In this document: positions 13,714-60,066 of the stretch, in pieces
Position numbering within the stretch: position 1 is the stretch's first letter
How the letters are laid out: the number at the start of each line of letters is the position of its first letter
Source: Phreatobacter aquaticus
Lineage (GTDB): Bacteria > Pseudomonadota > Alphaproteobacteria > Rhizobiales > Phreatobacteraceae
Assembly (NCBI RefSeq): GCF_005160265.1
Contig: NZ_CP039865.1
Location: 3,310,828 to 3,374,827, forward strand
DNA length: 64,000 nt
Reading direction: 5' to 3'
Made by a program: the position numbers and the translations under genes
The notes under the pieces: model-generated
What the model saw: only the letters and a program-made list of their open reading frames with translations
What the model was told of the DNA's origin: nothing
Database searches by the model: none

Positions 13714-14042
13714 GTTTCCTCCTGCCGACGAGCCGGCTTTTTGCGCATCCGAACCGTCGCCCGTGGGGGCTTCTGGCAGATCGGGGACAGGACGGAGCTT
13801 TGGCGTGGAGGGCCCGCGCCTTTGCATTCACTCCCGGACCCGATCTTGTTGTTTTTGGCGTTGACGACGATCGGTTCAATTTTGTTAGCAATAGGCGAAG
13901 GCCTACGCAACCGACAAATCCGAGGCAAGTGGATTCGTCCCTTGCGAACTTGCTCGCCATATGAATAAGTCTGAGCCAACGGGTGGCCGGCGGCTCATGG
14001 AGCTCACGGCATCAAGAAAACGATATTCCGGGAAACGTCATC
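13714..14042. promoter_or_regulatory. Divergent promoter region, livK / SDR operon
   Basis: An AT-richer 329-base gap (especially 13845-13970). It contains the dyad TAGGC (13892-13896) GAAG GCCTA (13901-13905), extended imperfectly by TTTGT (13881 area) and ACAAA (13914 area). Such a dyad between divergent transport and catabolic operons is where a regulator such as the nearby IclR protein would bind; that assignment is inference. No gene is seen here. Confidence 0.4.
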
Positions 14043-14792
14043 ATGCTGCTGGATGGGCGCGTCGCCATCGTCACCGGGGCTGGCCAAGGCAATGGCGAGG
14101 CGATTGCTCTCGGCCTTGCCCGCGAAGGCGCGATCATTGTTGCGACCGATATCGACCCGGCGACCGCTGCCCGTACCGCGGAGCGGATCGTGGCCGAAGG
14201 CGGCAAGGCGACGTCGCATCGCCTCGATGTTGCCGATAGCGCGGCCTGCCGGGCTCTGGCGTCGGAGATCGCCACCTCGGGCCAGAGCGTCTCGCTGGTG
14301 GTCAACAATGCCGGCATCTGCCCGCGTCACACGCTCGACAGTCCCGATCTCGAGCGGATGTGGGACGCCGCGATGGACATCAACCTGCGCGGCACGCTCA
14401 ACGTCTCGCTGGCCTTTCTCGGTCAACTCCGCGCAACCAAGGGGACGATCGTCAACATCGCCTCCATCGCGTCCTTCGTCTCGACCGCGACCTCGGTCAG
14501 CTATCCCGTGTCGAAGGCGGGCGTGAAGGCGCTGACCCAGAACATGGCGCACGAACTCGCCAAGGAGGGCATCCGCGTCAATGCCGTGGCGCCCGGCACC
14601 ATCGCCACCGCCATGACGGAGGCGACCCGCAACAATCCCGAGCGGTCCGAGCGGTTTCTCGCCCGCATCCCGATGGGCCGCTATGGCGAGCCCGAGGAAC
14701 TGGTCGGTCCCGTCGTGTTCCTGGCCTCGGCCATGTCCAGCTATGTCACCGGCACGACGCTTGTCGTCGACGGCGGCTATCTCGCGCTGTGA
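14043..14792 (+). CDS. SDR-family oxidoreductase
   Basis: A 249-residue classical short-chain dehydrogenase/reductase. The nucleotide-binding motif TGAGQGNGEAIA is near the N-terminus, NNAG follows at about residue 85, and the catalytic Ser...Tyr-x-x-x-Lys occurs as SIASFVSTATSVSYPVSK. The C-terminal GTTLVVDGGYLAL is typical. An Asp after the second strand (TDIDP) suggests NAD(H) preference. The ATG at 14043 has GGGAA upstream; a GTG at 13983 is an alternative. It heads the operon with the EthD, flavin dehydrogenase and MBL genes and probably oxidises an alcohol intermediate. The true substrate is unknown. Confidence 0.87.
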   Translation: MLLDGRVAIVTGAGQGNGEAIALGLAREGAIIVATDIDPATAARTAERIVAEGGKATSHRLDVADSAACRALASEIATSGQSVSLVVNNAGICPRHTLDSPDLERMWDAAMDINLRGTLNVSLAFLGQLRATKGTIVNIASIASFVSTATSVSYPVSKAGVKALTQNMAHELAKEGIRVNAVAPGTIATAMTEATRNNPERSERFLARIPMGRYGEPEELVGPVVFLASAMSSYVTGTTLVVDGGYLAL

Positions 14793-14803
14793 GCGCCCCC
14801 GCC

Positions 14804-15487
14804 ATGATCGTCAGGATGGGCCTTCTCACCAGGCGGCCAGACGTGCCGGTGGATGCGTTCCGACGCCATTGGCGCGACGTTCACGGACCGCTTGCGGCCG
14901 AATTTCCGGGTTTGCGCGCCTATCATCAGAACCATGTCGTCGATCGCCGACACCTCGCCATCGACCACAAGGGTGGCCAATGGGACATTGACGGGATTTC
15001 GGAGCTCTGGTTCGACGACGAAGCGGCCATGCGCGCAGCGATCGCGTCGCCTGCCTACCGGCCGATTGTCGAGGATTCGCCCGAATTTCTCAGCGACACG
15101 CGCGTTCTTGTGGCGCGGCAGACGACCGTCGTCCCCCCAGCCGATGGTCCGTTGATCAAGCGCATGTCGCTTCTGAAGCGCCGGCCCGACATCAGCGCCG
15201 AGCGTTTCGCCCACGAATGGCAGGTCATCCACGCACCATTGATCGCGGCCTTTCCGGGGATCGCGGGCTATCGGCAGAATCTCGTTGTCGACCGTGAGGG
15301 TGTGCCCGGCGCATCGTCACCCTATGAGGCCGTGCCGGTCGATGGCGTCGTGGAGTTGTGGTTCCGCAGCGAGGCGGACCTCGTTGCTGCCTTCCGCTCG
15401 CCCGCGGCTGACAGGTCGCAAGCCCAAGCGCTCGACTTTATCGACGAAATTACTCCCTTCCTTGTCGAGGTTCATCATGTCGTCTGA
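14804..15487 (+). CDS. Tandem EthD-domain protein
   Basis: A 227-residue protein made of two EthD-like (ferredoxin-like dimeric alpha-beta barrel) repeats. Repeat one starts IVRMGLLTRRPDVPVDAFRR (about residues 2-100) and repeat two LIKRMSLLKRRPDISAERFA (about 115-220). They align along their length, including HGPLAAEFPGLRAY and HAPLIAAFPGIAGY, so the protein is an internal duplication mimicking the usual dimer. EthD proteins accompany oxidative degradation of ethers, quinones and polycyclics. A GTG at 14789 overlapping the SDR stop codon is an alternative start. The 3' end overlaps the flavin dehydrogenase start by 11 bases, so translation is likely coupled. Confidence 0.83.
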   Translation: MIVRMGLLTRRPDVPVDAFRRHWRDVHGPLAAEFPGLRAYHQNHVVDRRHLAIDHKGGQWDIDGISELWFDDEAAMRAAIASPAYRPIVEDSPEFLSDTRVLVARQTTVVPPADGPLIKRMSLLKRRPDISAERFAHEWQVIHAPLIAAFPGIAGYRQNLVVDREGVPGASSPYEAVPVDGVVELWFRSEADLVAAFRSPAADRSQAQALDFIDEITPFLVEVHHVV

Positions 15488-17222
15488 CAGCAAGCCGATG
15501 GCGGCTGCACCCAAGCGGGTCGAATGCGATGTGCTGGTCGTTGGTTCCGGCGCCGGGGGCCTCGCCGCAGCCGTCGCTGCCGCCGCCCGCGGCCTCAAGG
15601 TGATCGTCGCCGAAAAGGCGCCCTATGTCGGCGGCACGACGGCTTTGTCCGGCGGCTTCATGTGGGTGCCCAACAACCCGATCTCGAAAGCCGACGGCAT
15701 TGTCGACAGCGTCGAGGAGGCCCGCACCTATCTGCGCCACGAGGCCGGCAACCACTTCAACGCCGATTGTGTCGATTCCTTCCTCGCCACCGGCCCCGAG
15801 GCGATAGACTTCTTCGAGACCAAGACCAAGGTCCAGTTCGAGCCGGCCTCCGCCTTTTCGGACTATCACCCGACCGCACCGGGGGGCCGCTCGGGCGGCC
15901 GCTCGATCAAGGCGCGGAACTTCGCCGGCCAGGAACTGGGGCCGGAACTGAAGCGCCTGCGCCCGCCGCTGCCGGAGCTCACCTTCGTCGGCCTGATGAT
16001 CGGCTCGGGCCCCGAGTTGAAGCACTTCTTCAACGTGACCCGCTCGGTCGCCTCCGCCGCCTATGTTGCGAAGCGGCTTGTCAGCCACGCCCGCGATCTC
16101 GCCTTCAATGGCCGCGGCATGCTGCTCACCAACGGCAATGCGCTGGCGGCCCGGCTGTTTCGCTCAGCCCTCGACTTTGGCGCCGAGGTCTGGACCGATG
16201 CGCCGGTCGAGCGGCTGATCCGGGTCAATGGCGCGGTGACCGGCGCGATCGTCGGCACCAAGGACGGCGAGGTCGAGGTCATCACCCACCGTGGGGTGGT
16301 GCTGGCAGCCGGCGGCTTTCCGCAGGACAAGGCCCGCCGCCGCGCCATGTTCCCGCACGACCGCGACAATACCGGCCATTATTCCCCGGCGCCCGAGACC
16401 AATACGGGCGATGGTCTGGCGCTCGGCGAGACAGCCGGTGGGCTGGTCGAGAACGGCTATCCCAATGCCGCCGCCTGGGTGCCGGTGTCGCGCGTGCCGC
16501 GCAGCGATGGCACTTTCGGGGTATTTCCCCACTTCATCGACCGCGCCAAGCCCGGCCTCATCGCCGTGCTGCCCAATGGCCGGCGCTTCGTCAACGAGGC
16601 CAATTCCTATCACGACTTCTGCCAGGCGCTGTTCGCCGCAGGCGAACCGAACAAGCCGGCCCACGCCTTCCTGATCGTCGACCGGCCCTTCCTGCGCCGC
16701 TTCGGCCTGGGCTTCGTCAAGCCGTTTCCGGTGCCGGTCGGGCCGCAGGTCCGCTCCGGCTATCTCAAGACCGGAGGCACCATCCGCGATCTCGCCGCCA
16801 ATGCCGGGATCGATCCCGCCGGGCTGGAGGCGACCATCGCCGAATGGAACCGCGACATGGCAAACGGCGAGGACCATGCCTTCGGCAAGGGCTCCACCGC
16901 CTATAACCGCTTCAACGGCGATCCGGAGTGGCAGCCCAATCCATGCCTTGCCCCCATCGAGACCGGGCCGTTCTATGCGGTCGAGGTGGTGGTCGGCGAT
17001 CTCGGCACCTTCGCGGGCCTCAAGACCGACGGCGATGCCCGTGTGCTCGATGGCGCCGGCCGGCCGATCCCCGGCCTCTATGCCAGCGGCAATGACATGG
17101 CGAGCATCATGGGCGGCAATTATCCAGGCGGAGGCATCACGCTCGGCCCGGCGCTCACCTTCGGCTACATTGCAGCCCGACACATGGCCGGCGCTACCGC
17201 TGCCGACCTCACCGCGGCCTGA
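15477..17222 (+). CDS. FAD-dependent 3-ketosteroid-dehydrogenase-like protein
   Basis: A 581-residue flavoprotein of the fumarate reductase / 3-ketosteroid delta-1-dehydrogenase (FAD_binding_2) family. The Rossmann motif GSGAGGLAAAVAAAARGLKV occurs near residue 22, followed by EKAPYVGGTTALSGG, where the FAD ring binds. The C-terminal MGGNYPGGGITLGPALTFGY closes the FAD site. Such enzymes introduce a C=C bond next to a carbonyl in steroids or other alicyclic ketones. No steroid genes surround it, so the real substrate may be a smaller cyclic ketone or lactone. GAGG precedes the ATG at 15477. A sub-family label beyond KstD-like is not justified. Confidence 0.85.
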   Translation: MSSDSKPMAAAPKRVECDVLVVGSGAGGLAAAVAAAARGLKVIVAEKAPYVGGTTALSGGFMWVPNNPISKADGIVDSVEEARTYLRHEAGNHFNADCVDSFLATGPEAIDFFETKTKVQFEPASAFSDYHPTAPGGRSGGRSIKARNFAGQELGPELKRLRPPLPELTFVGLMIGSGPELKHFFNVTRSVASAAYVAKRLVSHARDLAFNGRGMLLTNGNALAARLFRSALDFGAEVWTDAPVERLIRVNGAVTGAIVGTKDGEVEVITHRGVVLAAGGFPQDKARRRAMFPHDRDNTGHYSPAPETNTGDGLALGETAGGLVENGYPNAAAWVPVSRVPRSDGTFGVFPHFIDRAKPGLIAVLPNGRRFVNEANSYHDFCQALFAAGEPNKPAHAFLIVDRPFLRRFGLGFVKPFPVPVGPQVRSGYLKTGGTIRDLAANAGIDPAGLEATIAEWNRDMANGEDHAFGKGSTAYNRFNGDPEWQPNPCLAPIETGPFYAVEVVVGDLGTFAGLKTDGDARVLDGAGRPIPGLYASGNDMASIMGGNYPGGGITLGPALTFGYIAARHMAGATAADLTAA

Positions 17223-17257
17223 CCGGCTGTCATTTCAGATTTCAAGGACCCCCAGCC

Positions 17258-18241
17258 ATGACCGCAGGTTTCGCCAGCACCAATGACATGAGCGACAAGA
17301 TCATCTCCTTCGAGGAGCTTGGTCCGGGCCTCTATGGCTATACCGCCGAGGGCGATCCGAATTCCGGCGTAGTGGTCGGTGACGACAGCGTGCTGGTCGT
17401 CGATGCCCAGGCGACGCCCGCCATGGCAGCCGATGTCATCGCGCGCATCCGCACGGTCACCGACAAGCCGGTGAAGCACATCGTTCTGTCGCACTATCAC
17501 GCGGTGCGCGTGCTCGGCGCCTCCGGCTACCACGGTGCCGAGATCATCGCGTCGGAAGCGACCCGCGACCTGATCGTGGAGCGGGGCCAGCAGGACATGG
17601 ATTCGGAGATCGGCCGCTTTCCGCGGCTGTTTCGTGGCCGCGAGAGCATTCCCGGCCTGACCTGGCCCCACATCACCTTCAAGAAGCAGATGACGCTCTG
17701 GATGGGCAAGCGCGAGGTCCAGATCATCCATGTCGGCCGCAGCCATTCGGCTGGCGACACGGTCGTCTGGCTGCCGAAGGAGAGGGTGATGTTCGCCGGC
17801 GACACCGTCGAGTTCGGCGCGACGCCCTATTGCGGCGACGCCCATTTCGCCGACTGGTCGGGCACGTTGGATGCCATCCGCAAGCTCGGGCCCCAGAAGC
17901 TGGTGCCGGGTCGCGGCCGCAGCCTGATGAACCCGACCGAAGTGGAGGAGGGGCTCTCCGGCACCGCCGCCTTCACCTCCGATCTCTTCGCCATCGCGAA
18001 GAAGTCCGTCGCCGCCGGCCACGATCTCGGCACGACCTATCATGCGGCCATGGAGGCCATGCGCCCGAAATACGGCCATTGGGTCATCTTCGAGCACTGC
18101 ATGCCGTTCAATGTGTCGCGGGCCTATGACGAGGCCAAGGGGCTCGACCATCCCCAGATCTGGACCGCCGAGCGCGACGTCGCCATGTGGCGCGCCTTGG
18201 AAAAGGGCCAGCCGATGAAGGATGCCGAGATCCGGCGGTAA
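17258..18241 (+). CDS. MBL-fold protein with altered metal motif
   Basis: A 327-residue metallo-beta-lactamase-fold protein, last in the SDR-EthD-flavoprotein operon. The canonical HxHxDH is replaced by HYHAVR (in LSHYHAVRVLGASGYHG), so the Asp and final His ligands of one metal site are missing. Later motifs HVGRSHSAGDTVVW and MFAGDTVEFG are conserved, which points to a mononuclear or reshaped centre rather than a dead protein. There is no signal peptide, so it should be cytoplasmic. A thioester, lactone or ring-opening hydrolase role in the pathway is possible, but unproven. AAGGA precedes the start. Confidence 0.82.
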   Translation: MTAGFASTNDMSDKIISFEELGPGLYGYTAEGDPNSGVVVGDDSVLVVDAQATPAMAADVIARIRTVTDKPVKHIVLSHYHAVRVLGASGYHGAEIIASEATRDLIVERGQQDMDSEIGRFPRLFRGRESIPGLTWPHITFKKQMTLWMGKREVQIIHVGRSHSAGDTVVWLPKERVMFAGDTVEFGATPYCGDAHFADWSGTLDAIRKLGPQKLVPGRGRSLMNPTEVEEGLSGTAAFTSDLFAIAKKSVAAGHDLGTTYHAAMEAMRPKYGHWVIFEHCMPFNVSRAYDEAKGLDHPQIWTAERDVAMWRALEKGQPMKDAEIRR

Positions 18242-18341: not shown

Positions 18342-19241
18342 ATGAACCTCCGCCAGCTCGAACTTCTGCGCGCCGTCATCCGTTGCGAGACAACGGTTGG
18401 CGCCGCGCGCGAACTGGGTCTGTCCCAGCCGGCGGTCTCCAACGCCATCAAGCATCTGGAGCAGCAGCTGGGCTTCGCGCTTTTCGAGCGGGTGAACAAC
18501 CGCCTGTTCCCGACGGCCGAGGCCCGCGCGCTTTATCAGGATTCCGAGCCGATCTTCCTGATGCATGCGGCGCTGGAGGCCAAGGTCCAGGATCTCCGCG
18601 ACACCAAGGCCGGCCAGATCCGCATTGTCGGCACACCGCCGCTCGGCTATGGCGCGATACCCTCCGCGCTCAGGCGGTTCCTCGCCAAGCGGCCCAAGGT
18701 CAAGGTCGCCTTCGACGTCCGCCGCCTGGAGCAGGTGGTGGAAACCGTCGAGATGGGTGTTGCCGAACTCGGCTTCGTGCTCGGCATCGGCGATCACCCG
18801 GCGCTTGATGTCGAACCGCTGCTGGCATCCCGCATGGTCTGCGTCGTGCGGCCCGATCATCCCTTGGCCGCCAAAGGGGTGGTGACGCCGGCCGATCTGC
18901 ATGGCGAGCCGTTCATCGCCCTCGAACGCGGTTCGCGGTTGGGCACGGCGGTCCGCGAAGCCTTCCAGCAGGCGGCTGTCCCCTACAATTTCGCGGTCGA
19001 GGTGCGCTATTGCCAGACCGCCTGCGTGCTGGCCGAAAACGGCGTCGGCGTCACGGTGGTCGATCCGTTCTCGCCCACGTGTAGTGGCCATTATGATCTG
19101 GTTGTCAGGCCGTTCGAGCCGGCAACGCCGGTCACTGCCTATGTTCTCAGGCCCAAAGGCCGGCCCGTTTCGCGGCTCGCCGAAGCCTTCCTGCGCGAGG
19201 TCAGGACGTCGCTGGAGGATGTAGCGCCACGCCTGGGTTGA
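18342..19241 (+). CDS. LysR-family transcriptional regulator
   Basis: A 299-residue LysR-type regulator: N-terminal winged helix-turn-helix (residues 1-60, LGLSQPAVSNAIKHLEQQLG) and a periplasmic-binding-protein-like effector domain (about 90-295). It lies directly upstream of, and in the same direction as, the carbamoylase/ABC/hydrolase operon, with a perfect palindrome in the gap. It is therefore the obvious regulator of that operon, responding to the imported compound. The same-strand rather than divergent arrangement is less common for LysR pairs, and read-through from this gene could contribute to operon expression. Confidence 0.9.
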   Translation: MNLRQLELLRAVIRCETTVGAARELGLSQPAVSNAIKHLEQQLGFALFERVNNRLFPTAEARALYQDSEPIFLMHAALEAKVQDLRDTKAGQIRIVGTPPLGYGAIPSALRRFLAKRPKVKVAFDVRRLEQVVETVEMGVAELGFVLGIGDHPALDVEPLLASRMVCVVRPDHPLAAKGVVTPADLHGEPFIALERGSRLGTAVREAFQQAAVPYNFAVEVRYCQTACVLAENGVGVTVVDPFSPTCSGHYDLVVRPFEPATPVTAYVLRPKGRPVSRLAEAFLREVRTSLEDVAPRLG

Positions 19242-19257: not shown

Positions 19258-19305
19258 TATTTGCTCAGCAAATAGACATGCCCAAAAAATCATAGCTCTG
19301 GGCAT
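19258..19305 (+). promoter_or_regulatory. Putative LysR operator, two dyads
   Basis: A perfect palindrome TATTTGCT-C-AGCAAATA (19258-19274) is followed by a second inverted repeat ATGCCCA (19278-19284) and TGGGCAT (19299-19305) with a 14-base spacer. Both lie in the 145-base gap between the LysR gene and the carbamoylase gene. The pair resembles a recognition site plus activation site upstream of a LysR-controlled promoter. The rest of the gap shows no other feature. Confidence 0.6.
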
Positions 19306-19386
19306 TGCACGTCGGACCGGATGTGCAACATTTCGAACCGTCCCGCTTTTGCTCGCCTGCAATCGCTGTTCGATCGAGGACCCACC

Positions 19387-20367
19387 ATGCCCCGTATCCT
19401 GCGTGTCGCAGCTGCCCAGATGGGCCCCAACCAGCGGGCCGACAGCCGCGAGGCCATTCTCGCGCGGATGATCGCGCTGCTGGATCAGGCCGCCGACCAG
19501 GGCGCGCAGCTCGTCGTGTTCCCCGAGCTCGCCTTCACCACCTTCTTTCCGCGCTGGCTGCTGACGCCTGCCGAACTTGAAGCCTATTTCGAGCCGGCCA
19601 TGCCGAACCCGATGGTGTCGGCGCTGTTCGACCGGGCCCGCGAGCGCAAGATCGGCTTCTATGTCGGCTATGCCGAGAAAACCGCCGACGGCCACCATTT
19701 CAACAGCTCGATCACGGTTGGTCCGGATGGCGAACTGCTTGGCAAATACCGCAAGGTGCATCTGCCGGGCTCCGTCGAGCCGCGCATCGGCGACAAGTTC
19801 CAGCAGCTCGAGAAGCGCTATTTCGAGTATGGCGATCTTGGCTTTTCCGCCTTCTACGGCCCCGATGCTTGGGGCAGCCCGGTCACCGGCATGCTGGTCT
19901 GCAATGACCGCCGCTGGCCCGAGGCCTGGCGCTGCTACGGCCTCCAGTCGGTCGAGCTGATGCTGATCGGCTACAATTCGGCTGCCTATGATCCCAATGG
20001 CGGCAAGACCGAGAACGAGGAGCTGCGCACCTTCCACTCCACCCTTGCGGTCCAGGCCAATGCCTACATGAACGCGACCTGGGCGGTCTCGGTCGCCAAG
20101 GCGGGCAACGAGGACGGCTCAGGCCTCATCGGCGGCTCGCTGATCGTTGACCCGAACGGCGTCATCGTCGCCCAGGCGCAGTCGCTCGGCGACGAGGTTC
20201 TGGTCGCCGACATCGACCTCGACGCGTGCCGGCAGGGCAAGGAGAAGATGTTCAACTTCGCCGCCCACCGCCGGCCGGCGCAGTACAGCCGGATCGTCGA
20301 CCAGGTCGGCGCCGAGCCGCCGCCGGTCGGGACTCCGCTGAAGGTCGCGGGAGGGCAGGGGCGATGA
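19387..20367 (+). CDS. N-carbamoyl-D-amino-acid hydrolase
   Basis: A 326-residue nitrilase-superfamily enzyme that hydrolyses N-carbamoyl-D-amino acids to the amino acid, CO2 and ammonia. The catalytic triad is visible as Glu47 (VVFPELAFTTFFPRW), Lys123 (KYRKVHLPG) and Cys172 (VCNDRRWPEAW). FPELAxTTFFPRW and CNDRRWPE are hallmarks of the D-carbamoylase group rather than of nitrilases or beta-ureidopropionases. GAGGA precedes the start at 19387. It heads the operon and overlaps the ABC permease by four bases (ATGA). Carbamoylases follow a ring-opening step in hydantoin metabolism. No classical hydantoinase or hydantoin racemase is present here, which makes the NodB-fold hydrolase in the operon interesting. 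Confidence 0.9.
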   Translation: MPRILRVAAAQMGPNQRADSREAILARMIALLDQAADQGAQLVVFPELAFTTFFPRWLLTPAELEAYFEPAMPNPMVSALFDRARERKIGFYVGYAEKTADGHHFNSSITVGPDGELLGKYRKVHLPGSVEPRIGDKFQQLEKRYFEYGDLGFSAFYGPDAWGSPVTGMLVCNDRRWPEAWRCYGLQSVELMLIGYNSAAYDPNGGKTENEELRTFHSTLAVQANAYMNATWAVSVAKAGNEDGSGLIGGSLIVDPNGVIVAQAQSLGDEVLVADIDLDACRQGKEKMFNFAAHRRPAQYSRIVDQVGAEPPPVGTPLKVAGGQGR

Positions 20368-21218
20368 GCCAGGCTGTCTCCCGCACCGGCGCGCTGCCGG
20401 ATATTTCAGCCTACAAGCTGGTGCCCGACCGGCACTATGGCCGCTGGCTCGCCGCCATCGCGATCGTGGTGGTGCTGTTGATCCTGGGGCGTGCCTTCGC
20501 CCGCGGCCAGATCGAATGGCAATATGTCGGAACCTTCCTGACCGCCCGCGCCATCCTTGACGGCCTCGTCAACACGATCCTGATGACCATTGGCGCCATG
20601 TCGCTTGGCATCATCCTCGGTGTCGTGGTGGCCGTCATGCGCATGTCGCCGAACCCGGTCCTGAAGGGTGTGGCGCTCGGCTATGCCTGGCTGTTCCGCG
20701 GCACGCCGGTGATCCTCCAGCTGCTGCTCTGGTTCAATCTCGCGCTGATCTTTCCCCATCTCGGCATTCCCGGCGTCTGGAGTGTCCGGACCGTCGACGT
20801 CATGACGCCGGCAGTGGCAGCGCTTCTTGGCCTCGGCATCAACCAGGGCGCCTATACGTCGGAAGTCATGCGTGCAGGCATGCTGTCGGTCGATACCGGT
20901 CAGTATGAAGCCGCCAAAGCCATCGGTATGACGCGGCTGAAGTCGCTGCGCCGCATCGTCTTTCCGCAGGCCATGCGGGTGATCATTCCGCCGCTCGGCA
21001 ATGAGTTCATCGGCATGGTCAAGCTGACCTCGCTCGCCAGCGTCATCCAGTTCTCCGAGATCCTGCACAACGCGCAGAACATCTACTACGCCAATTCGCG
21101 GGTCATCGAGCTCTTGCTGGTGGCTGCCGTCTGGTACCTCGCGATTGTCTCGATCCTGACGCCGCTGCAGATGCTGCTGGAGCGCCATTTCGGCCGCGGT
21201 GCGGGAGTTGGGCGATGA
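20364..21218 (+). CDS. Polar amino-acid ABC transporter permease
   Basis: A 284-residue inner-membrane permease of the HisMQ/GlnP type, with about five hydrophobic segments. The cytoplasmic EAA loop is clear ([20 protein letters not shown]). It has an N-terminal cytoplasmic extension of roughly 35 residues ([20 protein letters not shown]), seen in polar amino-acid permeases of soil bacteria. It is the only permease in the operon, so it should form a homodimer. It overlaps the carbamoylase upstream and the ATPase downstream by four bases each, showing strict translational coupling. The cargo is probably an N-carbamoyl or cyclic ureide compound rather than a standard amino acid (inference from context). 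Confidence 0.9.
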
Positions 21219-21982
21219 CAACACCGCTCGTTTCCATCGTCGATGTCCACAAGACATTTGGCGCCTTCCAGGCCCTGAAAGGCGTCTCTCTGGACGTCAA
21301 GGCCGGCGAGGTCACCTGCATCATCGGCGCTTCGGGGTCCGGCAAGACGACGCTCTTGCGCTGCGTCAACCAGCTTGTCGCGATCGACAAGGGCGCCATC
21401 TGGGTCGATGGCGAATTGACAGGCTACCGGATCCTCGACGAGCGGCTCCATCGGCTTCCCGAGAAGGACATTGCCAGGCAGCGTCTCAAGACCGGGATGG
21501 TTTTCCAGCGCTTCAACCTGTTTCCGCACATGACGGCGCTCGAGAACATCATCGAGGGGCCGGTGCAGGTTCAGGGGCGGCCGAAGGCCGAGGCGGTCGA
21601 GGAGGCGAAGGCGCTTCTGGCGCGCGTCGGCATGAGCGAGAAGGCCGGCGCCTATCCGACCAATCTTTCGGGTGGCCAGCAGCAGCGCGTGGCGATTGCC
21701 CGCGCGCTCGCGATGAAACCCAAGCTGATGCTGTTCGACGAGCCGACTTCGGCACTCGATCCTGAACTGGTCGGCGAAGTGCTGGCCGTCATGAAGGAAC
21801 TGGCAGCTTCCGGCATGACCATGATTGTCGTCACCCACGAACTGGGCTTCGCCCGCGAGGTCGCCGACCGTGTCGTCTACATGGATCACGGCCTGATCAT
21901 CGAGAGCGGCACGGCAGCCGAGGTCCTTGGCGCACCGCAGGAGGCGCGGACCGCCGCTTTCCTGGCCGCTGTCCTGTCATGA
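21215..21982 (+). CDS. Polar amino-acid ABC transporter ATPase
   Basis: A 255-residue ATPase of the GlnQ/HisP type: Walker [13 protein letters not shown]-loop [11 protein letters not shown], signature [15 protein letters not shown], Walker [15 protein letters not shown] and switch VTHELGFA. All catalytic motifs are intact. A segment of about 15 residues before the Q-loop ([15 protein letters not shown]) resembles the longer version found in HisP-like proteins. It powers the neighbouring permease and probably serves both binding proteins of the operon. Confidence 0.93.
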
Positions 21983-22034
21983 ACCGTCGCAACACCAAAA
22001 GAACCAGACACACAACCAATCCAGAGGAGCCGAC

Positions 22035-22859
22035 ATGCTGAAGCGACTGATGATCACCGCCGCCGCCTGCCTTGCCGCATCGGCCGCCATTGCGCAGGAA
22101 TTGCCCGCTGCCATCAAGACGCGCGGCTCCATCATTGCGGCCGTGGTGCCGAACTATCCGCCGCTTGAGATGAAGGACCCGGCGACGAACCAGCTGACCG
22201 GTTTCGACATCGAGCTTGGCAATGCCATCGCCGAGAAGCTCGGCGTGCGCATGCAGTGGCAGGAAACGAGCTTCGAGCAGATGCTGTCTGCGGTGAAGAC
22301 CGGCCGCGTCGACATCATTCTGTCCGGCATGTCCGACCTGCCGGCGCGCCAGGAGACGGCAACCTTCGTCAACTACATCCGCTCGGGCACCCAGTTCTTC
22401 ACGCAGCACAGCCGTGCCGCGGAGTTCCCTACACGCGAGTCGCTCTGCGGCAAGTCGGTGGGGGCCTCGCGCCGGACCTCGCTGCCGGCGGAGATCAAGG
22501 CCTTCTCGGATGCCAATTGCGTGGCCAAGGGCCGCCCGGAAATCCGCATCGTCGGCACCGAGGGCTCGGCCGATGCTCGCACGCAGCTGCGCCAGGGCCG
22601 TATCGACGCCGCCATGCAGGGCTCGGAGACGCTGCCCTACATCATGGGCATGGAGCCGAACACCTTCGCGCTGATCGGCGAGCCCACCCGCTGGACGCTG
22701 ATGGGCATCGCGACCGGCAAGGAAGAGACCCAGCTGCAGCAGGCGATTGTCAGCGCGCTGCGCCAGCTGATCGCGGACGGAACCTACAAGCGGCTGCTCG
22801 ACAAGTGGCAGCTCTCGACGAACGGACTTACCGAGGTGACCATCAATGCCGGCCAGTAA
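22035..22859 (+). CDS. ABC transporter substrate-binding protein 1
   Basis: A 274-residue periplasmic binding protein of family 3 (polar amino-acid type, SBP_bac_3). A Sec signal (MLKRLMITAAACLAASAAIAQ) is followed by the domain start VPNYPPLEMKDPATNQLTGF and the typical GFDIELGNAIAEKLG. GAGGAG precedes the start. Two cysteines in the mature chain (LCGKSVG and DANCVAKG) are conserved in the paralogue at 23757-24608, suggesting a shared disulfide. The last 14 bases overlap the NodB-fold hydrolase gene, so capture protein and enzyme are translated together. Confidence 0.9.
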   Translation: MLKRLMITAAACLAASAAIAQELPAAIKTRGSIIAAVVPNYPPLEMKDPATNQLTGFDIELGNAIAEKLGVRMQWQETSFEQMLSAVKTGRVDIILSGMSDLPARQETATFVNYIRSGTQFFTQHSRAAEFPTRESLCGKSVGASRRTSLPAEIKAFSDANCVAKGRPEIRIVGTEGSADARTQLRQGRIDAAMQGSETLPYIMGMEPNTFALIGEPTRWTLMGIATGKEETQLQQAIVSALRQLIADGTYKRLLDKWQLSTNGLTEVTINAGQ

Positions 22860-23727
22860 ATACGACGCCATTCCGCTTCTGCCCGCCAACCGGGCGCCGC
22901 TGTCGCCGGAATATCCCTGGCCGAATGGCAACAAGGCCGCGGTCTTCCTGTCCTTTGACGTCGACGCCGAAAGCGCCTGGACCGCCAAGGACCCGAAGAA
23001 CTACGAGCGCCTGGTGACGGTCTCCTACGGTGGCTTCGAGGCGCGCGTCGGCGTCGCCAAGCTGCTGGAGTTGCTGCGCCAGCAGGAGCTGAAGGCGACC
23101 TTCTTCATCACGGGCTGGTCCGTCGAGGCGCACCCCGCCATGTGCGAGGCGATCCTGAAAGATGGCCACGAGATCGGTCATCACGGCTTCCATCACCTGC
23201 TGCCCGATCCCGGCGACCCGCTGATCGTCGACGAACTGGAAAAGGGTCTGGACAGCCTGAAGCGTCGCCTCGGCGTCGTGCCTGTCGGCTATCGCGCGCC
23301 GCTCGGCGAGAGCTGCGAGGAATTGCGTGTGCTGCTGAAGCAGCACGGGTTCCTCTATTCCTCGTCCTGGCGCGACGATGTCCGGCCCTACCGGCATCTC
23401 CTCGCCGACAACACGCCCGGCATCATCGAGCTGCCGGTCACCATGACCTATGACGATTGGATGTACGGCCTGACCCACCGGTTCTCGCCGCGCCCGCTGT
23501 TTCCCCGCGAGCATGTCCTGTCGATCTGGAACGACGAACTGGCCGAGACCCGCGACTGGGGCGGCCTGATCACCACCGTTCTGCATCCGCAGGTCTCCGG
23601 CCGGCCGATGCGGCTGAAGCTGCTGCGCGAGTTCCTCGACGGCGTGAAGACCTACGGCGATGTGTGGATCACGACCGGCGAAGAGATCGCGAAGCATTTC
23701 GCGGCTTGCGAAGCCAAGTCGGCCTGA
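22846..23727 (+). CDS. NodB-fold (polysaccharide deacetylase family) hydrolase
   Basis: A 293-residue protein without a signal peptide, so cytoplasmic, which argues against peptidoglycan or chitin as substrate. Metal motif 1 is FDVDAE (Asp38, Asp40), motif 2 is HEIGHHGFHH (His112-His117 region) and motif 3 YRAP (Arg150). The overall pattern resembles the HpPgdA/PuuE branch of the family, which includes allantoinase and, as I recall, bacterial cyclic imidases that open ureide or imide rings. With a carbamoylase and an importer in the same operon, a ring-opening role on a hydantoin-like or imide compound is attractive (inference). It overlaps the binding-protein gene by 14 bases. A plain amide deacetylase remains possible. 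Confidence 0.82.
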   Translation: MPASKYDAIPLLPANRAPLSPEYPWPNGNKAAVFLSFDVDAESAWTAKDPKNYERLVTVSYGGFEARVGVAKLLELLRQQELKATFFITGWSVEAHPAMCEAILKDGHEIGHHGFHHLLPDPGDPLIVDELEKGLDSLKRRLGVVPVGYRAPLGESCEELRVLLKQHGFLYSSSWRDDVRPYRHLLADNTPGIIELPVTMTYDDWMYGLTHRFSPRPLFPREHVLSIWNDELAETRDWGGLITTVLHPQVSGRPMRLKLLREFLDGVKTYGDVWITTGEEIAKHFAACEAKSA

Positions 23728-23756
23728 CCTGTCCCTGAAACCCTGAGGAGAAGACC

Positions 23757-24608
23757 ATGACCCGGACAATGTCCCGTTTCCTGCCCCTGGCCATGGCCTT
23801 CTGCCTTGGACAGGCGGTGCCCGCGCTCGCCCAGGCGCCGATCGTGCTCCCGGATGCCATCCGCACGGCTGGCGTCGTGCGCATCGGTATCGAGGCGACC
23901 TATCCGCCGATGGCCTACAAGGACCCCGCGACCAATGAGCGGCGCGGCGTCAATGTCGATCTCGTCACCGAAATCGCCAAGGTGCTGGGCTTGCGCATCC
24001 AGTGGGAAGAGATGGCATTCGCCCAGCTCATCCCGGCGCTGACCACCGGCCGTATCGATTTCTCCGGTTCCTCGATGACCGACCTGCCATCGCGCCGCGA
24101 TCGGTTGAGCTTCGTCGACTATGTCTCGACGGGTCCGCAGATCTTCGCGCTCGCGGCTCAGTCGGCCGGCATCACCCAGCCGACCGATCTCTGCGGCAAG
24201 TCGATCGCCACCCCGCGCACGACCGCCTATTTCCCGACCCTGACGGCGTGGAGCCAGAAGAACTGCGTCGACCAGGGCAGGCCTGCCATCAATGTGGTCG
24301 GCACCGAGGGGGCTGCCGCCACCCGCACCGACCTGCGTCAGGCGCGCGTCAACGCCGCCGTGCTGGGCGCCGAATATGTCGTCTATCTGAGCCAGCAGGA
24401 GCCCAACACTTTCGTGCGTATCGGCCGCCCCATCGGCGTCAATATGTCGGGCATGGCCTTTCCGAAGGAATCGACCGTTCTGCGCGATGCCGTCGTTGCT
24501 GCGATCAACAAGCTGATCGCCGACGGGACCTATCTGGCGATCCTGAAGAAGCACGGCATTGAGGATCAGGCCCTGGCCACGGCAACGGTCGACGCCGGCC
24601 AGCCCTGA
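23757..24608 (+). CDS. ABC transporter substrate-binding protein 2
   Basis: A 283-residue family 3 periplasmic binding protein, paralogous to the one at 22035-22859: IEATYPPMAYKDPATNERRG matches VPNYPPLEMKDPATNQLTGF, and LCGKSIATPR with KNCVDQGRPAINVVGTEG matches the other's LCGKSVGASR and related stretch. The signal peptide ends PALAQ. Two binding proteins sharing one permease and ATPase suggests two related ligands or stereoisomers are imported. GAGGAG precedes the start, 29 bases after the hydrolase. Confidence 0.9.
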   Translation: MTRTMSRFLPLAMAFCLGQAVPALAQAPIVLPDAIRTAGVVRIGIEATYPPMAYKDPATNERRGVNVDLVTEIAKVLGLRIQWEEMAFAQLIPALTTGRIDFSGSSMTDLPSRRDRLSFVDYVSTGPQIFALAAQSAGITQPTDLCGKSIATPRTTAYFPTLTAWSQKNCVDQGRPAINVVGTEGAAATRTDLRQARVNAAVLGAEYVVYLSQQEPNTFVRIGRPIGVNMSGMAFPKESTVLRDAVVAAINKLIADGTYLAILKKHGIEDQALATATVDAGQP

Positions 24609-24676
24609 CCCCTGTCGATCGACCGGCGCTGCCAACGGGCTGTGCCGGTCGTTCCCCTGCATAGGCGAGTCCGTCC

Positions 24677-26077
24677 ATGAACATGCTCATCACACGGACT
24701 GTCGTCGTGACCGGCAATGCCGCGCACGATGTCCTGTCCAATGCGGCGATTGCCGTGATCGGCAACCGGATTGCCGCTGTCGGATCGACCTCCGAGCTGG
24801 AGCAGGCCTATCCGGATCTCGAGCGTTTCGACGCCCGCGGCCTCGCCGTCCTGCCGGGCTTCATCAACGCCCATACCCATACCGTCCTCCTTGCGCTGCG
24901 CGGCACGGTCGAGGACTGGTCTGGCGAGGCGATCTACCGCTACATGACGCCGGTGTCCTACGCGATGAGCGGCGAGGAGCGGTCGGTTCTGGCAGCGCTC
25001 GGTTGCCTGGAGGCGATCCGCTCTGGCACCACGACGCTGGTCGATCCGTTCCGGCACGTCACGACCTATGCCAAGGCCATGGCCGAGACCGGCATGCGGC
25101 TCTGGCTCACCGAATCCTGCGCCGACATCGACACCCGTCGCATCCGCCACGGCGAGTATGCGGTGGACGAGACCTTCGGTGCGGCCTTTCTGGAGCGCGC
25201 CGAGGCGCTGGTCGAAGGGTTTCATGGCAGCTATGGCGACCGCGTGCGCTGCCAGGCGGCGGCCCATGCGCCGGACAATTGCTCGCCCAAGATGCTGCGA
25301 TCCGTGCTCGATTTCGCGGCGAAGCACCAACTGACCCGCACCGTCCATCTGTCGCAAAGTCCGGGCGAGGTCGCAGCCGTCAAGGCGGCGCACGGACTGA
25401 CCTCGGCTGAATATCTTGATCGGGAGGGTTTCCTCGGCCCCGACCTGACCGCCGCTCACTGGACCTTCTGCACTGAGGCCGACATCGCGCTATTGGCCGA
25501 GCGCAAGGTTCGCATGGCCCATACGCCGGCCTCGATCTCCAGGCGCGGATTCCACAAGGTCCGCATTGGCCAGATCCGCGATGCCGGCGTCGAGGTGGTC
25601 TTCGGCACCGACAACATGAGCGAGGACATGTTCCAGGCCATGGCCTTCGGCTCCATCGTCCATCGGACGGGCAGGGGCCGGGAGGTCGAGGGCGGCGTGT
25701 CGCCAAGCCCCGACGAGGTGCTGGACAGCGTGACGACCATCGCTGCACGCTCGGTCGGTGCGGGCGATGAGATCGGCGCGATCAAGGTGGGCTACAAGGC
25801 CGACCTGACCTTTATCGATCTCAAGACGCCGGCGCTCCGGCCGATCGTCCGCCTGGTCTCCAACATCGTCCATTACGGCCATCCCGGCTGCGTCCATTCC
25901 GTCATGGTCGATGGTGAGTTCCTGATGCGCGACCGCAAGGTTCTCACCATCGACGAGGACGCGCTGATGGAAGAGGCCGACCGGGTGACCCGCCGTGTCT
26001 GGGAGCGGATGATGGCCGACAATCCCGACATCGCGCGGCCGGATGGCGAGCTCCAATGGCTCGGAACGGGCACCTGA
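24677..26077 (+). CDS. ATZ/TRZ-type amidohydrolase
   Basis: A 466-residue metal-dependent amidohydrolase of the TIM-barrel superfamily, in the group with S-adenosylhomocysteine/methylthioadenosine deaminases, guanine deaminase and the triazine hydrolases. Metal motif NAHTHT is at about residue 65-69, later ligands appear in VHLSQSPGE and AAHWTF, and the catalytic Asp is in FGTDNMSED. The beta-sandwich ends (VLSNAAIAVIGNRIAAVG and AGDEIGAIKVGYKADL) are present. Such enzymes hydrolyse amidine or amide bonds of heterocycles. It is last in the operon and could deaminate the heterocycle before ring opening. The exact substrate is unknown. Confidence 0.85.
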   Translation: MNMLITRTVVVTGNAAHDVLSNAAIAVIGNRIAAVGSTSELEQAYPDLERFDARGLAVLPGFINAHTHTVLLALRGTVEDWSGEAIYRYMTPVSYAMSGEERSVLAALGCLEAIRSGTTTLVDPFRHVTTYAKAMAETGMRLWLTESCADIDTRRIRHGEYAVDETFGAAFLERAEALVEGFHGSYGDRVRCQAAAHAPDNCSPKMLRSVLDFAAKHQLTRTVHLSQSPGEVAAVKAAHGLTSAEYLDREGFLGPDLTAAHWTFCTEADIALLAERKVRMAHTPASISRRGFHKVRIGQIRDAGVEVVFGTDNMSEDMFQAMAFGSIVHRTGRGREVEGGVSPSPDEVLDSVTTIAARSVGAGDEIGAIKVGYKADLTFIDLKTPALRPIVRLVSNIVHYGHPGCVHSVMVDGEFLMRDRKVLTIDEDALMEEADRVTRRVWERMMADNPDIARPDGELQWLGTGT

Positions 26078-26158: not shown

Positions 26159-26599
26159 ATGCGCGCCATCGGACCGGTTCTCGCTCTCGTTCTCCTGCCC
26201 AGTCTGGCGCTCGCCCAGACGCCCGGCGCGATCCCTGCGCCGCGCGACGTCGATGGACGTTTCGTGCTGCGCGAGACGCCCGAGGGTTTCCTGCGGATGG
26301 ACAGCCGCACCGGCCAGATCTCGCTTTGCGCCCGCCAGAGCGGTGGGCTGACCTGCCGTCTCGTACCAGACGACCGAACCGCGCTCGAGGCCGAGGTTGA
26401 ACGCCTGAAGGCCGAGAATGAAGCGCTGAAGCGGGGAGGGGCGACGGCTCTCGCCAAACCGCCGACCGATGGCACCGCCACGCAACTCCCCAGCGATCAG
26501 GACATCGACCGCGCGCTGTCGATCGCCGAGCGGGTCTGGCGCAAGTTCATGCAGATCATGCGCGACACCGAGCAGGAACAACCGAGCCGCAGGCTTTGA
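26159..26599 (+). CDS. Secreted coiled-coil protein, unknown function
   Basis: A 146-residue protein with a Sec signal (MRAIGPVLALVLLPSLALAQ), a short conserved-looking domain with two cysteines (GQISLCARQ and GLTCRLVPD), a coiled coil at about residues 77-97 (LEAEVERLKAENEALKRG) and an amphipathic C-terminal helix (RALSIAERVWRKFMQIM). I recall similar proteins annotated as hypothetical in Rhizobiales, without a role. CGGAG precedes the start. It is convergent with map, with only seven bases between the stop codons. Confidence 0.75.
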   Translation: MRAIGPVLALVLLPSLALAQTPGAIPAPRDVDGRFVLRETPEGFLRMDSRTGQISLCARQSGGLTCRLVPDDRTALEAEVERLKAENEALKRGGATALAKPPTDGTATQLPSDQDIDRALSIAERVWRKFMQIMRDTEQEQPSRRL

Positions 26600-45885: not shown

Positions 45886-46026
45886 TATTGGGAGTGCGGG
45901 CGGTCTTGCGATCGCCCGCGCACCTTCCCGCCGGTTGGGTTTGACCATCCGGAGGGGCCCGCCGAGAGGTGGAATTTTCGAATTGGAGGCGACAAGCCTC
46001 CTGGAGTGCAACAGGTGTCAAACGCT

Positions 46027-46078
46027 TGACCGGACGGTCCAGGGTCGTGGAAACGACCCGATTTGGACCGTCCGGTCA
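46027..46078 (+). other. Long hairpin between rplL and rpoB
   Basis: A perfect 15-bp stem TGACCGGACGGTCCA (46027-46041) with TGGACCGTCCGGTCA (46064-46078), continued inside by GGGTCGT (46042-46048), GGAA tetraloop and ACGACCC (46053-46059), with only four unpaired bases on one side. A smaller hairpin GGAGGC/GCCTCC (45985-46001) precedes it. In E. coli this gap holds an attenuator and an RNase III site; the long duplex here suggests RNase III cleavage that separates stalk-protein mRNA from polymerase mRNA (inference). Confidence 0.8.
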
Positions 46079-46164
46079 GGCGTCTGCGGTGAGGGGTCTT
46101 CTCCGACCTCCTGCCGTCGAGACCGGACCGCCGTCGACGCCAGGCGGTCCAAGCGAGAGGCGAC

Positions 46165-50301
<4,137 letters not shown>

Positions 50302-50319
50302 CAGTTCGACAGGTCTTTA

Positions 50320-50343
50320 CGGAACCGGGTGCGCCCGGTTCCG
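50320..50343 (+). other. Hairpin between rpoB and rpoC
   Basis: Perfect 10-bp stem CGGAACCGGG (50320-50329), loop TGCG, CCCGGTTCCG (50334-50343), 18 bases after the rpoB stop. No T-run follows, so it is not a terminator; an mRNA processing or stability element is more likely. Confidence 0.7.
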
Positions 50344-50424
50344 ACCAAATCGTTCACTTCGGCCGCGATGCCTTCGCTCCGGCCATGATTTTTTCCCGGT
50401 TTTCCCGGGGCTTTGGAGACTGCG

Positions 50425-54630
<4,206 letters not shown>

Positions 54631-56203: not shown

Positions 56204-56692
<489 letters not shown>

Positions 56693-56732
56693 CGAAACTT
56701 AAGGGCCCTGACGGGTTCGAAGGATTACGATC

Positions 56733-58808
<2,076 letters not shown>

Positions 58809-58875
58809 CCGTCCGTCCGGCTGGTGCCGCGGGTCTCTGATCCCGCACTGGTAAGCAAATTGAAGGAGGCCTCCG

Positions 58876-60066
<1,191 letters not shown>

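Follow-up and report, generated by a model that had tools for sequence, protein, structure and literature searches.

The 64,000-nucleotide stretch of Phreatobacter aquaticus DNA analysed here (contig NZ_CP039865.1, positions 3,310,828 to 3,374,827; hereafter the window) contains an operon that joins a homologue of N-carbamoyl-D-amino-acid hydrolase (D-carbamoylase), a polar amino-acid (PAAT) ATP-binding cassette (ABC) transporter with two solute-binding proteins (SBP1 and SBP2), a NodB-fold hydrolase (hereafter NodB) and an ATZ/TRZ-type amidohydrolase (hereafter ATZ protein). The source genome consists of one contig of 4.97 Mb, and its best named relative in a scan of one genome per species was a Phreatobacter metagenome-assembled genome. 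The eight open reading frames (ORFs) all lie on the plus strand, are intact and start with ATG, running from 18342 (LysR) to 26077 (Table 1). Their Pfam families are, in order, LysR, CN_hydrolase, BPD_transp_1, ABC_tran, SBP_bac_3, Polysacc_deac_1, SBP_bac_3 and Amidohydro_1. By their coordinates, three junctions overlap by 4, 4 and 14 bp, and the remaining gaps are 145, 52, 29 and 68 bp. The gene set, order and overlaps given in the initial annotation were borne out by the ORF check and Pfam. The LysR gene, also counted there, lies just outside the annotated interval, and that interval opens, at 19258, with a 17-bp palindrome and not with a gene.

Table 1. Genes and candidate regulatory site of the operon (window coordinates)
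Feature	Position	Strand	Basis
LysR-type regulator	18342..19241	+	Pfam LysR_substrate and HTH_1
Palindrome TATTTGCTCAGCAAATA (T-N11-A), candidate LysR box, 17 bp	19258..19274	not applicable	
N-carbamoyl-D-amino-acid hydrolase homologue, nitrilase superfamily, Glu47/Lys123/Cys172	19387..20367	+	Pfam, PDB sequence search
PAAT ABC transporter permease	20364..21218	+	Pfam BPD_transp_1; NCBIfam HEQRo_perm_3TM above cut-off
ABC transporter ATPase	21215..21982	+	Best NCBIfam models TcyN and GlnQ (both below cut-offs)
SBP1 (SBP_bac_3)	22035..22859	+	Pfam; signal peptide by eye
NodB-fold hydrolase	22846..23727	+	Metal-site residues D38, D40, H113, H117, H247; no signal peptide by eye
SBP2 (SBP_bac_3)	23757..24608	+	Pfam; signal peptide by eye
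ATZ/TRZ-type amidohydrolase, HxxQ replacing HxxE	24677..26077	+	Pfam, sequence comparison

Conservation of the gene set

The genes form a genuine operon that is conserved in relatives. Fourteen related loci were obtained from the scan of one genome per species, and they belong to Phreatobacter-type and Acetobacteraceae genomes. The order carbamoylase-permease-ATPase-SBP1-NodB-SBP2 was preserved in all 14, with an additional SBP1-like gene within the otherwise preserved order in L013, and the 14-bp overlap of the SBP1 and NodB genes was likewise preserved (14/14); because both order and overlap persist, the conservation goes beyond chance. A LysR gene, with a product 52-76% identical to that of the window, adjoined the carbamoylase gene in 12 of the relatives, in tandem in the Phreatobacter-type loci and divergently in the Acetobacteraceae loci. 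The palindrome was found at 14 or more of its 17 bases (at least 14/17) in 4/4 Phreatobacter-type upstream regions, the window included, with 0/200 shuffles each reaching this level, and the best of 19 other loci had 12/17 bases.

Among 297 genomes of the order, own genome included, the NodB search gave 22 at E <= 1e-60 and the carbamoylase search gave 80. A close NodB (71% identity or more) occurred in 10 of the 297 genomes; a carbamoylase orthologue (67% or more) lay 3.5-4.3 kb from it in nine of these ten and was present in three of the other 287 (Fisher p 5e-14, uncorrected for relatedness). Across the class, a NodB match at E <= 1e-70 was obtained in 12 of 385 genomes, the window's own among them.

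The examined loci were sorted into three types; they were chosen for examination and are not a random sample. Type A (n = 26), with a close NodB, comprises the window, the 14 scan loci, L042, L045-L048, L061, L071-L073, L109 and L110, L042 being placed there despite its broken NodB. Type B (n = 10; NodB 54-63% identical) comprises L049, L050, L052, L053, L070, L074-L077 and L092, with L052 and L053 near-identical yet counted separately. Type C comprises 15 loci (NodB 43-53% identical). The short loci L023-L041 (hence G019), the carbamoylase-only loci L043, L044 and L111-L113, and L114 were left out of these counts. Two lineages supplied most of the type A loci, and the counts are not independent events; in addition, the two surveys share three genomes, since L009, L010 and L021 overlap with G246, G227 and G207, respectively (contigs of equal length, identical NodB rows in the tree). 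NodB matches were present in 202 plasmid records, of which 40 were listed and 10 examined, while those with a carbamoylase match numbered 49, of which 25 were listed and four further ones examined. A carbamoylase gene was present in 23/26 type A, 1/10 type B and 0/15 type C loci; that of G165 (49%) was left uncounted, as it lies outside the locus, some 20 kb away from the type B NodB gene. The genes thus stay together in the 14 relatives and the type A loci, as the initial annotation's single-system reading had expected.

Properties of the encoded proteins

The carbamoylase has Glu47, Lys123 and Cys172 in place, at the positions given initially, and matches PF00795 at 3.9e-47. Its best 11 PDB sequences are all D-carbamoylases (330-289 bits), with the next kind, nitrilase/beta-ureidopropionase, at 78 bits, and its nearest solved relative is 6lei (E 1e-97).

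For NodB, a profile of 15 orthologues was compared with PDB chains. The closest relative was 3rxz (183 bits), an M. smegmatis protein with no assigned function, followed by 3qbu (HP0310, 88 bits) and the PuuE types 3s6o, 1z7a and 3cl6 (72-65 bits), and the best sugar deacetylase scored 46 bits. Residues D38, D40, H113, H117 and H247 were invariant in 15/15 orthologues and align with Asp12, Asp14, His86, His90 and His247 of HP0310, to which the protein is about 23% identical. In HP0310, Asp14, His86 and His90 bind the metal, and the water is contacted by Asp12 and His247 (PMC3084791), whereas PuuE is described as not metal-dependent in the available parts of PMC3084791 and PMC10967932. Since the five invariant residues match the HP0310 metal site, unlike PuuE, the window NodB is, judged by its sequence, of the metal-binding sort. 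The metal motif reads HGFHH in this protein and HGYRW or HGWRW in the PuuE-type chains. In a tree of 82 rows, the window NodB belonged to a clade of 60 rows (support 98/100) and PuuE to a different one of 13 rows; 3rxz, HP0310 (partial sequence only) and a 30% paralogue were unplaced in this tree, and long branches were present.

The structure model of NodB was weak (predicted local distance difference test, pLDDT, 58.3; predicted template modelling score, pTM, 0.65; many loops below 50), too weak for pocket analysis. Foldseek with this weak model gave 3rxz at 1.6e-14, PuuE types at 3.7e-11 and weaker, HP0310 at 4.3e-10 and the best sugar deacetylase at 4e-7, and agrees with the profile on two tiers, small-molecule NodB enzymes standing above sugar deacetylases. 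A sugar deacetylase (CE4) identity was rejected on profile score, Foldseek value and tree, in keeping with the small-molecule enzyme proposed initially. The PuuE allantoinase (TIGR03212, PDB 3cl6), which the initial annotation had offered as a relative, shares the NodB fold and is a ring-opening small-molecule enzyme. Identity with PuuE was nevertheless rejected; the match to its model reached 72 bits against a cut-off of 424.6, the metal site with its motif is kept and the clade is separate. HP0310 is reported to be the nearest known structure of the fungal cyclic imidase HxnM, which shares 64% identity with an imidase homologue of P. putida (PMC9304392). With the NodB-fold cyclic imidases (P. 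putida YZ-26 imidase and HxnM) and HP0310/HpPgdA, the window protein shares the Asp-Asp-His-His-His metal/water site and a probably cytoplasmic location, and it differs in being nearest to 3rxz and paired with a carbamoylase, the imidases being compared by description and not by sequence. A hydrophobic N-terminal stretch was not seen in NodB by eye, no predictor being used. The 48% NodB paralogue of the same genome (L054) was set aside as a functional clue, its surroundings being without a carbamoylase and PAAT transporter.

SBP1 and SBP2 are paralogues, as had been stated; their identity is about 43%. In amino-acid-binding proteins an Asp holds the alpha-ammonium group of the ligand and an Arg is of the carboxylate type. 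These columns were compared using the ancestral amino-acid-binding protein 4zv1 as reference in 60 binding proteins of these loci (more than 38% identical to those of the window, L044 included; one protein of L070 is split over two ORFs, causing two gaps). The Asp column was Gly in 55/60 (2 Asp, 2 Ser, 1 gap) and the Arg was kept in 57/60; SBP1 shows both features. The Asp-to-Gly change is a hint that the ligand has no free alpha-amino group. It was not accepted as proof that the ligand is N-blocked, five of 12 other SBP_bac_3 proteins of the genome, some doubtfully aligned, also being without the Asp. A model of mycobacterial StpK7 ranked high for both binding proteins; StpK7 is described, in the part of the source available, as a kinase in a phage-resistance island, and a link was rejected, as the match probably reflects a shared binding-protein-like domain only.

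In 7/14 relatives SBP2 is followed by an ATZ orthologue (69% or more), and a distant ATZ protein (30-33%) is encoded further downstream in six, the contig ending in one. Overall, ATZ proteins occur in 20/26 type A loci, L042 included, and form two distant subfamilies (69-83% or 30-33% identical); they are missing in L047, L061, L071 and L072, and the contig ends first in L020 and L048. The window protein has a HUTI_composite domain match in the Pfam scan. All 20 operon ATZ proteins have the metal ligands HxH, H, H and D, and all 20 show HxxQ where AtzA (4v1x) and the deaminase 4f0r, two reference proteins only, show HxxE. The Glu of HxxE has a catalytic role. Because the operon proteins have HxxQ and not HxxE, deamination by the ATZ-type amidohydrolase appears doubtful, which weakens the optional deamination step proposed at first.

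Related loci and neighbouring genes

Racemase-family proteins matching that of L046 are encoded in or near 7/26 type A loci. Two racemases, from L046 and a Roseomonas plasmid (L112), were searched against the PDB; their best matches were hydantoin/allantoin racemases, and both family Cys residues, which have a catalytic role, were aligned. These genes strengthen the cyclic-ureide theme of the initial annotation. In 3/3 examined plasmids of Roseomonas mucosa/gilardii, a LysR gene and a carbamoylase orthologue (78-80%) are followed by a racemase-family gene, and no NodB or transporter was found within about 9 kb by tblastn. Classical hyu (hydantoin utilisation) clusters combine a D-hydantoinase and a D-carbamoylase with an optional hydantoin racemase, and D-carbamoylases and hydantoinases serve in the production of D-amino acids (PMC3546935). 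The window operon has the same D-carbamoylase family, an ABC transporter is found near one hyu case described in the available part of that paper, and racemase-family genes occur in some related operons; it differs in that the place of the D-hydantoinase is taken by a NodB-fold hydrolase together with two binding proteins of the PAAT kind. The word 'deacetylase' is absent from PMC3546935, and among the titles listed from open-licence PubMed Central none was relevant to a hydantoinase of the NodB fold that works with a carbamoylase or racemase. Two further sets were observed. In the own genome, at L108:11955-15247 (G000:C1:3802454-3805746), a pair of PuuE-like NodB genes is interleaved with a pair of genes of the Asp/Glu/hydantoin-racemase family. 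Genes for a spermidine-type ABC transporter and an amidase-like protein (both named by eye) adjoin them, and this is another candidate cyclic-ureide cluster. A plasmid of Pantoea sp. At-9b (L114) has a LysR gene, a D-carbamoylase (52%), a D-amino-acid transaminase, an ABC transporter and a D-aminoacylase together, which would make another D-amino-acid scavenging set.

Type B loci have the same permease, ATPase and binding protein (10/10), together with genes for an argininosuccinate-lyase-like protein (9/10), an MmgE/PrpD protein (9/10) and a ureohydrolase-family protein (5/10). In the two tested, the lyase matched NCBIfam argH at 495 and 511 bits (cut-off 279.5). No match to the lyase, MmgE/PrpD or ureohydrolase was found in the 26 type A loci. 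The MmgE/PrpD family includes an iminodisuccinate epimerase, and a title cited in the available part of PMC7347537 pairs the epimerase with a C-N lyase. The occurrence of the same NodB-transporter module with carbamoylase or with lyase genes suggests that both pathways have in common a step acting on amino acids that are N-substituted or cyclised. None of the titles listed from open-licence PubMed Central describes this module. The argH2 region of S. meliloti pSymB (SMb21094-21097; PMC2912261, in part) has the same kind of transporter, and in strain ABS7 a NodB homologue (54%), with argininosuccinate-lyase-like and MmgE/PrpD genes where the window operon has the carbamoylase; the equivalence of the argH2 regions of the two S. 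meliloti strains is inferred from gene order and replicon. In a tolC mutant, the argH2 transporter genes were down 10- to 21-fold by microarray and argH2 4.5-fold by reverse-transcription PCR, which its authors tie to lower NtrC expression (PMC2912261, available part).

Other arrangements were also recorded. The mixed locus L049 has NodB, an ATZ protein 68% like that of the window, M20 carbamoylase-type, ureohydrolase-family and racemase-family genes, and a carbamoylase. A D-cysteate sulfo-lyase (541 bits, cut-off 450) is encoded there near the racemase-family gene and D-carbamoylase, about 4 kb from the type B NodB gene, and suggests a sulfonated hydantoin or carbamoyl substrate. On a Kozakia baliensis plasmid (L071), the NodB-transporter module adjoins an arginine-deiminase-family gene (below the family cut-off) and an M20 peptidase gene. 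In the 15 type C loci, carbamoylase and window-type transporter were both absent (15/15). A HyuA-like gene (N-methylhydantoinase/oxoprolinase type, by eye) lies within about 8 kb in 4/15 of them, namely L055, L096, L097 and L105, whose NodB is 47-50% identical.

Upstream of the operon, 13983-18241 encodes an SDR protein (short-chain dehydrogenase/reductase), a FAD_binding_2 protein and a metallo-beta-lactamase-fold protein, all oriented alike; this resembles a separate catabolic operon and stops about 100 bp before the LysR gene. The 146-aa ORF at 26159, directly after the operon, has no Pfam match, and neither have four long minus-strand ORFs at 46018-54162 and 56625-59910. The latter probably mirror real plus-strand genes, whose sizes would fit rpoB, rpoC, fusA and tuf.

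Proposed function and its alternatives

The operon is most likely a system for scavenging hydantoin-like or N-carbamoyl amino acids, and it probably imports and degrades derivatives of amino acids that are capped or closed into a ring, for example hydantoins, the chemistry being an inference. Its role would be to obtain nitrogen from amino acids substituted at the alpha-N and from the corresponding cyclic compounds, which are hydantoin-like ureides. Import would fall to the ABC transporter and its binding proteins SBP1 and SBP2; a cytoplasmic, metal-dependent NodB of the HP0310/cyclic-imidase sort would cleave a cyclic imide or amide bond to open the ring; and the carbamoylase would then take off the carbamoyl group, releasing an amino acid along with ammonia and CO2, the steps presumably following this order. 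The ATZ-type amidohydrolase would be a variable accessory enzyme, and LysR may control the set via the palindrome upstream of the carbamoylase gene. To this full model, with NodB as the ring opener, we give slightly less than an even chance.

Several observations weigh against that model. HP0310 itself was inactive on all compounds its authors tried, allantoin included (PMC3084791), so that its imidase label comes by kinship. Foldseek on the weak model placed PuuE types just before HP0310, the reverse of the profile order, and the best NCBIfam model for NodB is that of PuuE. The Gly of the binding proteins is suggestive only, as Asp stands at that column in only 7/12 other SBP_bac_3 proteins of the window genome. 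The coupling of NodB and carbamoylase also has exceptions: in L061 the transporter and NodB are present, while carbamoylase, LysR and ATZ are missing; in L042 only residues 198-292 of NodB are left, as a fusion to SBP1, although the carbamoylase, transporter, racemase and ATZ genes are retained; and tblastn found no NodB beside the carbamoylase orthologues of L043, L044 and the three plasmid loci of Roseomonas, nor within about 7 kb or more of those in G188 and G194. Finally, four D-hydantoinases above the TIGR02033 cut-off are encoded in the window genome outside the operon and could open rings, and the operon of L073 (Terrarubrum) includes an extra dihydroorotase-type cyclic amidohydrolase (680 bits, cut-off 482). 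The initial statement that no hydantoinase or racemase is present therefore holds for the operon, where no D-hydantoinase was found by ORF list, Pfam and NCBIfam, but not for the genome, which also has six Asp/Glu/hydantoin-racemase-family matches outside the operon. On whether a separate hydantoinase is required the evidence is mixed. Overall, the interpretation first proposed was supported in part.

These points bear on three alternatives. The substrate may be imported already open, as an N-carbamoyl or N-acyl amino acid, with NodB removing another acyl group or acting on a side amide and the genomic D-hydantoinases opening any rings. One of these D-hydantoinases adjoins a racemase-family gene, the NodB fold includes deacetylases and deformylases (NCBIfam model names), the Arg kept in the binding proteins suits an open acid, and the carbamoylase orthologues without NodB fit as well. 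We nevertheless hold this explanation to be unlikely: NodB always accompanies this transporter in loci found via NodB, with the 14-bp SBP1 overlap in 14/14, and the hydantoin/allantoin-type racemases in or near some related operons act, by family name, on rings. Less likely again is that the ATZ-type amidohydrolase opens the ring, as does imidazolonepropionase of the same superfamily, with NodB preparing or finishing the substrate. Its HUTI_composite match, its HxxQ, with which it may not deaminate, and its presence in most type A loci, also where NodB is broken (L042), would agree with this, whereas its two distant subfamilies and its absence from four loci make it less constant than NodB. 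Marginally below this we place guanidino or cyclic guanidino substrates (iminohydantoins, argininosuccinate anhydride), the carbamoylase handling the ureido product. The type B companions of the module and the arginine-deiminase-family gene in Kozakia speak for it; against it, those companions match in no type A locus, and NodB of the two types is only 54-63% identical, so that their substrates may differ.

The ring-opening model also has a broader form, which we consider tentative and rather improbable as a whole. NodB and the PAAT transporter would be a portable unit that takes up alpha-N-substituted amino acids in cyclised form and opens their rings, and NodB would represent a hydantoinase class with no kinship to those known. 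The unit would feed the D-carbamoylase in type A, and in type B (Sinorhizobium, Gemmobacter, Chelatococcus and others) the argininosuccinate-lyase-like enzyme, the MmgE/PrpD-type epimerase and often the ureohydrolase. Type A substrates would then be cyclic ureides and type B substrates cyclic guanidino or N-succinyl compounds. The operon itself is a variant of the hyu-type clusters and not a separate kind, its possibly new part being the NodB-transporter module common to types A and B.

If the model is true, NodB would be a metal-dependent hydantoinase that opens rings with a fold unrelated to that of the amidohydrolase-type enzymes, and a function would be assigned to a protein group currently annotated 'polysaccharide deacetylase'. 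The split between types A and B makes the substrate question testable, namely what the carbamoylase and argininosuccinate-lyase-like pathways share that needs the same importer and hydrolase, and S. meliloti pSymB, a replicon well suited to genetic work, carries one of the type B loci.

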